Under the pieces are notes generated by a model that saw only the letters and a list, made by a program, of their open reading frames with translations, made no database searches and was not told the DNA's origin. A stretch of 35,829 nt of DNA from Actinomycetota bacterium (GTDB lineage Bacteria > Actinomycetota > Actinomycetes > Nanopelagicales > Nanopelagicaceae): the NCBI GenBank assembly GCA_029977785.1, contig JAPOKG010000008.1:1-35829 (forward strand), read 5' to 3'. Below, piece by piece: positions 2,411-10,065 of the stretch (positions are counted from its first letter, which is position 1; each line of letters opens with the position of its first letter). Both the position numbers and the translations under genes were made by a program.

Positions 2411-3450
2411 TTACTTCACCAATGCCGCTAGCGCTGAACCGATTTCGGTGGTGCCGCGTTTGGTATCACCTCGTGATACTAAATCGCTAGCCACAGCCTT
2501 TTCAACATCCTTTGCTGCATCCGATAAACCAAGGTGGTGAAGCATCATCGCAACAGACATCACTGTCGCAGTTGGGTCTGCGATGTTCTTGCCGGCGATA
2601 TCTGGCGCAGAGCCATGAACCGGCTCAAACATAGATGGGAACTTGCCAGTTGGGTTGATATTTCCTGAAGCAGCAAGGCCGATTCCCCCGCAAATTGCAG
2701 CTGCGATATCGGTCAAGATATCTCCGAAGAGATTATCGGTGACTACAACATCAAAACGTTCTGGGTTGGTGACAAAGAACATTGACGCAGCATCAACATG
2801 CAAGTAATCAGTTGTGACGTTTGGAAACTCTTTTGCAACTTCATTGAAGGTGCGAGTCCATAAGCTGCCAGCACGAGTGAGCACGTTGTTCTTATGTACC
2901 AAGGTCAGTTTCTTACGATCACGGGCTGCAGCGCGAGCGAAGGCATCTCGGATAACGCGCTCGGCGCCACGACGAGTGTTGAGTGATTCTTCAGTTGCAA
3001 TCTCTGCATCTGTGCCTTCAGCAAGAACGCCACCGGCGCCAACATATGGGCCTTCAGTTCCTTCGCGGACAACGATGAAATCGATTGGCGCCTTTGTTGC
3101 AAGTGGACCAGTAACTCCAGGCATCAACTTTGCAGGGCGCAAGTTGATGTAGTGATCAAAGGCAAATCGAAGTTTAAGAAGTAGGCCGCGCTCAAGAACA
3201 CCGCTTGGAACTGTTGGATCCCCCACTGCGCCAAGCAAGATGACATCAGCTTTGGCGAGCTCTGCCAGAACTGAGTCAGGTAGAACTTCGCCGGTGCGAT
3301 GCCAATAGCCAGCACCTAAGTCGTAGTTGGTCTTATTAAATGTCACGCCGTATTTAGCTGCAACGACATCAAGAACTTTAAGACCTTCAGCAACAACTTC
3401 ATTGCCGATTCCATCGCCTGGAATAACTGCAAGGTTAATTGTGCGCGCCA

Positions 3451-3451
<1 letters not shown>
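2411..3451 (-). CDS. leuB: 3-isopropylmalate dehydrogenase
   Basis: 346 aa ORF; isocitrate/isopropylmalate dehydrogenase family ([58 protein letters not shown]). Neighbours are BCAA genes. Confidence 0.93.
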
Positions 3452-6398
<2,947 letters not shown>

Positions 6399-6399
<1 letters not shown>

Positions 6400-8162
6400 T
6401 AGAGCTCCTGTGAATCCCAGTCAGGCGCGGTAGCGCGGGCGATCATGATCTCATCGTTAGAAGTTCCGGCAGCAACCATCGGCCAGACCATGGCATCGCG
6501 GTGAACACGGAAATCAACAACAACTGGTTGATCGTTAATTGACATCGCTTTTTCAATTGTCTTATCAAGATCGTCTGGATTATCACAGGCGAGCCCGACA
6601 CATCCCATTGATTCTGCAAGCATTGGAAAGTTTGGTACGCGCTTGGAATCGAGCGATGTATTTGAGTAACGACCTTCGTAGAACAATGTTTGCCACTGGC
6701 GAACCATGCCAAGAGATTCATTGTTGATAATTGCGACCTTGATTGGGATGTTGTTAAGAGCACATGTAACAAGTTCTTGGTTTGTCATCTGGAAGCAGCC
6801 ATCGCCATCGATAGCCCAAACAGTTGCATCTGGTGCACCGACCTTTGCGCCCATTGCAGCAGGAACTCCGTAACCCATGGTTCCGGCTCCACCTGAGTTG
6901 AGCCAAGTACGTGGATGTTCATAAGAGATAAATTGTGAAGCCCACATCTGATGTTGGCCAACGCCTGCTGTGAAGATTGTGTCTGTTCCAGAAATCTGGC
7001 CGATGCGTTGAATAACTTGCTGAGGAGAGAGAGATCCATCATCAGGAAGGTCATATCCCAATGGATATGTTGATTTAAGCGAGTTCATCTGGCGCAACCA
7101 TGGAGCAAGATCTGGCTGGTTCTTTGCAAGGGCTGCCTTCAGCGCTGGAATCAGCGCCGTGATTGTTTCGCGGACATCGCCAACAACGGCGACATCTGCA
7201 TGGCGATTCTTGCCGATTTCAGCAGGATCAATATCTGCATGAAGAATCTTGGCGTTGACTGCGAAAGTTGAAAGTTTGCCGGTAACGCGGTCATCAAAGC
7301 GTGCGCCCAAAGTAATAAGCAGATCAGCCTTTTGCAGCGCAGTTACCGCAGCTACTGTGCCATGCATGCCTGGCATACCCATATGAAGTGGGTGTGAATC
7401 TGGGAATGCACCGCGTGCCATCAAAGTGGTGACAACTGGTGCGCCAAGAAGTTCGACTAATTGACGGAGCTCTTTATGAGCATCTGCCTTAATGACGCCG
7501 CCGCCGACATAGAAGACAGGCTTGGAAGATTGTGCAATCAACGCTGCAGCATCGGTAATTGCTTGCGCCTCTGGCTTCACTCGTGGCTTGTAGCCAGCCA
7601 AGTTAATTGAAGTTGGCCAGTTGTACGTTGTCATTTTCTGCAGCGCATCTTTAGCGACGTCAACAAGTACTGGACCTGGACGGCCTGTTGTTGCAATATG
7701 GAATGCTTCAGCAATAACGCCTGGGATCTGAGCTGGATCTGTCACCAAATAGTTGTGTTTTGTAAATGGCATGGTGATGCCACGAATATCTGCCTCTTGG
7801 AATGCATCGGTGCCGATAGCTGCAGATGGAACCTGACCAGTGATTGCTACAAGTGGGACAGAGTCCATTGCAGCATCCATGAGCGGCGTGACAAGGTTTG
7901 TTGCACCTGGCCCTGAAGTTGCAATACAGACACCGGCGCGACCAGTAACTTGTGCGTAACCAGTGGCGGCATGTCCTGCGCCTTGTTCATGGCGAACCAA
8001 GATGTGGCGAATAGTGGAATCGAAGATCGGATCGTAAGCAGGAAGAATTGCGCCACCTGGTAGTCCAAACATCACTTCTACGCCAGCTGCTTCAAGGCTC
8101 TTCACCAATGAAGTAGCTCCTGTCATTTCTGTTCCGTTCGCTGTTGGAACGTGTGTGGCCAT
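6399..8162 (-). CDS. ilvB: acetolactate synthase large subunit
   Basis: 587 aa ThDP-enzyme; [79 protein letters not shown] upstream. Confidence 0.96.
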
Positions 8163-8207
8163 CTTCTTGCTCCTTTCTTCTTCCCTTTTCTATTTCTTTC
8201 CTAAACG

Positions 8208-8231
8208 AAAAAACCCTCAGATATCTGAGGG
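8208..8231 (-). terminator. Rho-independent terminator in the ilvB leader (attenuator terminator)
   Basis: On the minus strand CCCTCAG-ATAT-CTGAGGG (perfect 7 bp stem, 8214-8231) followed by TTTTTT, located between the leader ORF and the ilvB SD. Confidence 0.88.
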
Positions 8232-8254
8232 CGCGCGTGACATGAAGGCACGCG
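8232..8254 (-). promoter_or_regulatory. hairpin between the leader ORF stop codon and the terminator (possible pause or pre-emptor element)
   Basis: Minus strand GCGCGTG-CCTTCATGT-CACGCGC, 7 bp perfect stem beginning at the leader ORF stop codon boundary. Confidence 0.65.
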
Positions 8255-8314
8255 CTATCGAATCACCACCACTGAAACTACTGACTCTGTTACGACAGAT
8301 AGGGCTGATTGCAT
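8255..8314 (-). CDS. ilvL: putative ilv leader peptide MQSALSVVTESVVSVVVIR (19 aa)
   Basis: Minus strand ATG CAA TCA GCC CTA TCT GTC GTA ACA GAG TCA GTA GTT TCA GTG GTG GTG ATT CGA TAG. 7 Val, 1 Ile and 1 Leu of 19 residues, with GTG GTG GTG ATT just before the stop; followed by hairpin and terminator, then ilvB. Confidence 0.82.
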   Translation of the reverse strand: MQSALSVVTESVVSVVVIR

Positions 8315-8320
8315 GGCGCT

Positions 8321-8349
8321 ATTCTCCAATGCGCAGGGCTATGCGTCAA
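8321..8349 (-). promoter_or_regulatory. predicted promoter of the ilv leader/ilvBNC operon
   Basis: Minus strand TTGACG (8344-8349) - 17 bp - GAGAAT (8321-8326); 6 nt between the -10 and the leader ATG. Confidence 0.6.
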
Positions 8350-8391
8350 GAGATGAGATGAACGTCTCAATAAATGGACGGTGCCCCTCAA

Positions 8392-10065
8392 TTAGTCGCA
8401 GACAGCGCCTTTCGATGCAGAGCCAACCAGCTTCGAATACTTATGGAGAACACCACGGGTGTATTTGTGGGGCAGCGGCTTCCATCCAACCTTACGGGAT
8501 TGAAGTTCTGACGGCTCCACGAGTAAATCAAGTGTGCGATTTGGGATATTAATACGAATGCGATCGCCATCTTTAATGAATGCAATTGGACCGCCATCGA
8601 CTGCTTCAGGAGCAACATGTCCAACGCAGAGACCAGTAGAACCACCAGAGAAGCGACCGTCGGTAAGTAAAAGTGTTTTCTTACCAAGACCCGCACCTTT
8701 GATTGCACCTGTAATCATCAACATCTCGCGCATACCCGGTCCACCCTTTGGGCCTTCATAGCGAATAACTACTACATCACCTTCTTGGATAGTTCCATTT
8801 TCAAGTGCATCCATAGCGGCTTGTTCGCGTTCAAAAACGCGCGCTGGGCCTTCAAAGGTTTCGATGCCAATTCCTGCCGTCTTACAAACCGCGCCTTCGG
8901 TTGCAAGAGTGCCACCCAGAATGGTGATTCCAATATCTGTTGACATGGGCTTCTCGGCCGGAAACAACACTTCGCCATCTGCCAGCGGAGGATTAATGTC
9001 GGCCAAATTTTCAGCCATTGTTTTTCCTGTCACGGTGAGGCAATCTCCATGTAAATATCCAGCATCAAGCAGAATGCGAAGTACGACAGGAATTCCACCA
9101 ACTCGATCGACATCTGTCATGACGTACTTACCGAATGGTTTGAGGTCTCCAAGAAGAGGAACCTTCGATCCAATGCGATGAAAATCTTCAAGAGTCAGGT
9201 CGACATCTGCTTCATGTGCAATAGCAAGTAAGTGCAGAACCGCGTTGGTAGAACCGCCCAGAGCCATCAAGATGGTGATTGCGTTTTCGAAGGCATTCTT
9301 TGTCAATATATCGCGGGTAGTGATTCCCTTTGCAATGAGGTTTACAACTGCAGCGCCAGCTTGTTCAGCATATGCGTCGCGACGTCGATCAACTGCCGGA
9401 GGGGCTGCAGATCCTGGAAGTGAAAGTCCAATTGCTTCAGCAATACTCGCCATAGTGTTTGCGGTGTACATACCGCCACACGCGCCTTCGCCAGGACAGA
9501 TTGCCTTTTCAATTTGGTCAACACGCTCTCTTGTTATTAATCCACGTGCGCATGCACCAACTGCCTCAAAGGCATCAATAATCGTGACGTCTTTGCCATC
9601 GACGTTACCTGGCAAAGTCGAACCGGCGTAGACAAATACTGATGCCACATCGATGCGAGCTGCGGCCATCATCATGCCTGGAAGTGATTTATCACAACCT
9701 GCGAATGTGACCATTCCATCTAAACGTTCAGCCTGCATCACAGTTTCAACAGAGTCTGCAATTACTTCACGAGAGACGAGCGAGAAGTGCATTCCTTCAT
9801 GGCCCATAGAAATACCATCAGAGACTGAGATAGTTCCAAATTGCATAGGGAATCCACCCGCATCAAGAACACCCTTTTTGGATGCCTTTGCCAAGCGATC
9901 GAGTGAAAGATTGCATGGTGTGATTTCATTCCAGCTTGATGCGATACCAATCTGTGGTTTTACCCAATCTTCATCGCCCATACCGACTGCACGTAACATT
10001 CCACGCGCTGGTGCACGTTCTAATCCATCAGTAACGAGCCCTGAGCGCGGTTTCATCGTAGACAT
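8392..10065 (-). CDS. ilvD: dihydroxy-acid dehydratase
   Basis: 557 aa [76 protein letters not shown]. Confidence 0.96.

Follow-up and report, generated by a model that had tools for sequence, protein, structure and literature searches.

How the long minus-strand operon ilvBNC-serA-leuB-ilvE-cimA is controlled is the question raised by positions 8208-8349 of the DNA analysed here, a stretch of 35,829 nucleotides (the window) that stems from a 1.04-Mb bin, 77% complete. Close public relatives bear the labels Nanopelagicaceae or Nanopelagicales, and also Actinobacteria bacterium IMCC26103. A sequence-only reading, made without database searches, had placed a valine-rich leader peptide and an attenuator at these positions. 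Our literature search found no report on attenuation in this freshwater actinobacterial group.

The gene identities in the operon are backed by NCBIfam models. On the minus strand, ilvB (acetolactate synthase large subunit, 6399-8162), ilvC (ketol-acid reductoisomerase, 5036-6073), serA (phosphoglycerate dehydrogenase, 3451-5070, start codon uncertain), leuB (3-isopropylmalate dehydrogenase, 2411-3451), ilvE (branched-chain aminotransferase, 1328-2410) and cimA (citramalate synthase, 3-1352, which runs off the window) all score over the respective cut-offs, and ilvN (6100-6399), encoding a short acetolactate synthase small subunit of 99 aa, scores over that of TIGR00119. Both in the window and in its nearest relatives, IlvN is without its C-terminal half (about 100-116 aa compared to 171-205 aa elsewhere), while the terminal ...DYQN is still present, as after an internal deletion. 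The short IlvN might have an altered valine feedback. The leader element sits directly upstream of ilvB, and ilvD, located upstream of the leader, ends at 8392.

All minus-strand elements named by the sequence-only reading were found in the sequence. The -35 hexamer TTGACG (8344-8349; TTGAC in nearly all parsed relatives) is separated by a spacer of 17 nt from the -10 hexamer GAGAAT (8321-8326), which ends 6 nt upstream of the ATG of a short upstream open reading frame (uORF, 8255-8314). The encoded leader peptide, MQSALSVVTESVVSVVVIR, contains 7 Val, 1 Ile and 1 Leu among its 19 residues, with the putative control codons GTG GTG GTG ATT (Val Val Val Ile; GTGGTGGTGATT) at 8261-8272. The first G of hairpin 1 (8233-8255) doubles as the final base of the TAG stop codon; the hairpin reads GCGCGTG-CCTTCATGT-CACGCGC with a loop of nine nucleotides. 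It is directly adjoined by the intrinsic terminator GCCCTCAG-ATAT-CTGAGGGT with its T-tract (8208-8232), and the Shine-Dalgarno sequence GAAAGGAG of ilvB follows at 8170-8177. Of 200 dinucleotide shuffles, 198 fold less stably than the leader itself (z = -2.7). A pattern scan for a promoter, a leaderless uORF rich in branched-chain amino acid (BCAA) codons and a terminator picked out this site alone within the window, and locally shuffled sequence totalling about 717 kb gave no hit. No Rfam family matched the window above its gathering score, and a further Rfam search gave only a chance-level hit; a riboswitch reading, lacking an Rfam match, was rejected. The bases just 3' of the U-tract (8195-8208 in the window, and their counterparts in relatives) are conserved within genera even outside the terminator stem, occurring as TTTTTGCATTA, TTTCGCATTT and TTTTTTCATTTA, with TTTTTTGTTGC in Streptomyces.

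Unlike ilvB, the uORF of the window is not preceded by a Shine-Dalgarno sequence. This lack, together with the 6 nt between the -10 hexamer and the ATG, makes a leaderless transcript probable, and its start can probably be placed at the ATG. Across the family, a Shine-Dalgarno-like motif precedes ilvB in 121 of 123 leaders and the uORF in 3 of 123. The distance from the -10 hexamer to the ATG is 6-7 nt in essentially all parsed family leaders, with the proviso that the parser takes whichever start codon scores best for its promoter and therefore leans to leaderless readings. The spacing in the window agrees with that of leaderless promoters of S. lividans, where the mean distance from the -10 hexamer to the transcription start is 6.3 nt (PMC8079986). 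A probably leaderless uORF goes beyond what the sequence-only reading had claimed.

The element is conserved across the family. An IlvB search of 151 family genomes (17 genera) gave strong matches in 135, from which the upstream regions were taken, and automatic parsing yielded 123 leaders, representing 15 genera. Each of the 123 has a promoter, a near-leaderless uORF and a terminator; three further leaders, mis-scored by the parser, follow the same plan when read by eye. Of the 360 second-base cells in the last three BCAA codons, 359 hold T, whereas base 3 is variable, and this combination of a fixed second and a free third base points to selection on the encoded amino acid class. Three types of uORF ending were observed, namely right after VVVI, one codon later as in the window, and past the 5' arm of hairpin 1 (...SVVIxERAI).

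For the structures, 51 distinct leaders were aligned. Taken together, 91.7% of the cells of hairpin 1 and the terminator are paired, compared to 22-50% when the alignment is slid by 1-3 columns, and nine base pairs are changed on both sides, with compensatory changes in both hairpins; these pair counts are biased somewhat towards the structure, which was read from the same sequences. The covariation score of the two hairpins was matched by none of 500 shuffles. A covariation count at fixed offsets is blurred by register shifts of 1-2 nt, and the aligned count was used instead. The stretch from the last BCAA codon to the terminator folds more stably than shuffled sequences, on average by 4.2 standard deviations of the folding energy. 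The checks proposed along with the sequence-only reading, a uORF kept across relatives with BCAA codons free at the third base and compensatory changes in both hairpins, thus came out in its favour.

The bin also holds a second ilvB leader, on contig C53 (G000:C53, about 1130-1600; L306), with the uORF MSALTSSVSVLVSVVVIRCA. This leader is nearly identical to that of genus g17 (L121) and of another genus's type; the contig is probably a contamination of the bin.

A covariance model, R1, was built from the 51 leaders of the family alone. In the window, R1 matches at 8207-8269 and otherwise gives one weak partial match, which lies on the opposite strand at the terminator; all its matches in the bin are ilvB leaders. 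Outside the family, 60 regions upstream of ilvB were searched in other families of the class, and R1 was found at full length with E < 0.01 in 48. Its matches include named Streptomyces, Jiangella and Phytoactinopolyspora loci, that of Streptomyces at full length, and the uORFs in the matched leaders of other families read ILVLGKRVG, ILVVxxRAG, LVVIGQRVG and similar. A phylum-wide genome search with R1 matched 12 of 118 genomes and missed known leader carriers through its prefilters, so that it tells little of the distribution. The AGCGCG...CGCGCU core of hairpin 1 is nearly invariant from the family to Streptomyces, more so than pairing alone would need. With an adjacent ilvB, a short ORF with a run of Ile, Val or Leu codons, a terminator with U-tract and class-wide homology, the element belongs, as judged by sequence, to the known actinobacterial ilvB-leader (IlvL) attenuators.

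If the element is an attenuator, what could serve as its antiterminator? By inspection of the exposed RNA, no classical strand-sharing antiterminator, in which a segment pairs with the 5' or 3' arm of the terminator, is conserved; only an overlap with hairpin 1 recurs. The sequence-only reading had likewise found no antiterminator by eye. That part holds for conserved strand-sharing pairings, whereas hairpin 1 itself, which that reading had not put forward in this role, is now the best candidate. Pairing of UCAGU in the uORF with ACUGA in the terminator 3' arm shows up in the lowest-energy fold of three sequences and was rejected: the stalled ribosome would cover UCAGU, and TCA is replaced by TCT in some relatives. 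Also discarded was a pairing, in the window, of the terminator with an upstream TATCTG, because relatives with a short uORF lack such a segment.

When hairpin 1 and the terminator are folded together, they lie 0-1 nt apart in 119 of the 123 leaders. When hairpin 1 is folded before the 3' arm of the terminator exists, it takes 1-5 nt of the terminator 5' arm in 77 of 123, and most of the others adjoin. The leaders from other families behave similarly, with a gap of at most 1 nt or an overlap in 44 of 47 and capture in 29 of 47. A gap of at most 1 nt was found in 87 of 87 distinct leaders, compared to 52.9 expected from shuffles (about 61%); abutment is therefore enriched but not rare by chance. 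In the window, the two hairpins have no nucleotide in common and can both form in solution, so that only a steric or kinetic effect could make them mutually exclusive there.

We masked 26 nt for a stalled ribosome, as applied for M. tuberculosis, and determined how much of the hairpin-1 energy is kept. The mean across leaders is 0.87-1.0 for stalls that precede the last BCAA codon by at least two codons, and drops to 0.43 at the next codon, 0.18 at the last BCAA codon and 0.01 at the stop codon. The corresponding values in the window are 1.0 at the first and second GTG, 0.35 at the third, and 0 at both ATT and the stop codon. This geometry is that of a classical antiterminator. As only stalls at the first Val codons leave hairpin 1 free, the mask predicts that valine rather than isoleucine is sensed, in line with the valine-dominated control suggested earlier from the codon content. 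Tentatively, antitermination by abutment might even operate class-wide, again with valine being sensed; this would need no strand sharing, as the lowest pairs of the terminator would be sterically blocked within the RNA exit channel.

We consider it very likely that the element controls the ilvBNC-serA-leuB-ilvE-cimA operon by ribosome-mediated transcription attenuation, with charged tRNA-Val as the sensed signal. Such attenuation, as the sequence-only reading had proposed, is supported by the family-wide uORF, its BCAA codons, both hairpins and the homology to experimentally supported leaders. Transcription would start at or next to the uORF ATG, and a ribosome would load on the leaderless 5' end. 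With plentiful valine, the ribosome would reach the stop codon and cover the 5' arm of hairpin 1, and with hairpin 1 blocked the terminator would fold and the transcript end at about 8208. When valine is scarce, the ribosome would stall on the first or second GTG, and hairpin 1 could fold once made. Adjoining the terminator, or in many relatives taking 1-3 nt of its 5' arm, hairpin 1 would hold the base of the terminator open beside the U-tract, and RNA polymerase would read through into ilvB. The leaderless start, translation, stalling and read-through in this model, as well as the antiterminator action of hairpin 1, are what we infer from the sequence and its homologues.

A different division of labour, which we regard as unlikely, is that attenuation is real but hairpin 1 aids termination, by coaxial stacking or pausing, and that the switch is another pairing or the coupling of ribosome and RNA polymerase. 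The finding that hairpin 1 and the terminator adjoin and can coexist in the window would suit such a role, yet its sign would be wrong: a hairpin that is intact at stalls on the first Val codons and lost at the stop codon would turn the operon off under starvation. As to another pairing, the lowest-energy fold of three leaders (L109, L118 and L164), and of these only, pairs the control-codon region of the uORF with the terminator, so that hairpin 1 is enclosed. However, in many relatives only 2-4 codons precede the Val run, which leaves no RNA upstream of the stalled ribosome for an alternative antiterminator.

The promoter region raises a second alternative. A 16-bp palindrome, TGAGACGTTCATCTCA (8354-8369, minus strand), lies 4 bp upstream of the -35 hexamer as a candidate operator. 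The motif TGAGAY-N4-RTCTCA is found 4 bp 5' of the -35 hexamer in 98 of the 123 leaders, and at least 10 of its 12 positions match in 100 of 123. The 1.04-Mb bin has two perfect copies, both at ilvB leaders, one of them on contig C53. An identity with the NdgR/LtbR operator was rejected, as the published motifs differ. Control might thus be exerted mainly at the promoter by a protein on this palindrome, with the attenuator as a minor modulator, and the fixed spacing in most genera together with the restriction of perfect copies to ilvB leaders would fit this. On the other hand, the palindrome is poor or missing in four genera (g6, g10, g13 and g15) where the uORF and the hairpins persist, and we rate predominant promoter control as improbable, somewhat more so than a pro-termination hairpin 1. 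That the structure is a mere terminator of ilvD next to a small unrelated ORF is highly implausible, since, although ilvD ends just upstream and the terminator would also block read-through from it, a promoter and a uORF lie between the two and are conserved together with the terminator, the BCAA codons are conserved at the amino acid level and the same element recurs across the class.

Valine-sensing attenuation at ilvB remains our preferred reading. The element is kept across a family of freshwater Actinobacteria with small genomes (about 0.7-2.2 Mb), which suggests that RNA-level amino acid control is retained in reduced genomes. The many aligned leaders provide a concrete antiterminator candidate for actinobacterial ilvB leaders, and R1 models the structure of an RNA element that is found class-wide and matched by no family in the Rfam release searched.

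How does the element compare to known attenuators? In the trp and ilv attenuators of E. coli, the control codons are positioned just 5' of segment 2, which becomes masked once a ribosome occupies the stop codon, and the logic proposed here is the same. Segment 3 in E. coli is common to antiterminator and terminator, whereas the hairpins here adjoin or have only a few nucleotides in common.

Within the Actinobacteria, the family of ilvB leaders was first predicted in 2005, when its mode of action was called unclear (PMC1262725); its molecular details were still called underexplored in 2026. The mention of Corynebacterium in the sequence-only reading was right; the IlvL leaders of Streptomyces and the ilvB1 leaders of Mycobacterium are more closely related. 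The Corynebacterium ilvB-II motif, described in 2023 (PMC10272879), likewise has a BCAA uORF and two hairpins, the second being the terminator, 5' of ilvBNC, and its leader peptide lacks a ribosome binding site according to Morbach 2000, as cited there. Its uORF covers most of P1, and the proposed antiterminator consists of the terminator 3' arm and the P1 loop (PMC10272879). In contrast, hairpin 1 of the window lies downstream of the control codons. The combination of a uORF across P1 with the antiterminator of ilvB-II was not found in the family leaders: the control codons are 5' of hairpin 1, and by inspection no pairing of the hairpin-1 loop with the terminator 3' arm recurs family-wide.

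In Streptomyces, a short BCAA uORF, an AGCGCG-type hairpin and an intrinsic terminator follow one another 5' of ilvB as in the window, and in S. lividans TK24 MRTRILVLGKRVG has been annotated from RNA-seq as the leaderless leader peptide IlvL (PMC8079986). Streptomyces differs in having one Val codon where the window has a Val run, in a longer hairpin-1 loop and in a uORF that crosses the hairpin 5' arm, while that of the window ends at the arm's edge. As a point against the attenuation model, the substitution of leader codons in S. coelicolor ilvB is cited as having had no effect (in PMC1262725). The ilvB1NC leader of M. tuberculosis shares with the window a BCAA uORF and, in our model, an antiterminator/terminator switch, and its LVVI control codons can be set beside the LVVIGQRV of the leaders from one of the other families. 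This leader of 166 nt lies 5' of the structural gene and gives rise to a short terminated leader RNA (PMC13236596). In this work of 2026, exchanging LVVI for AAAA abolished induction and removal of the terminator eased the phenotype, and both mutants fit the attenuation model (PMC13236596).
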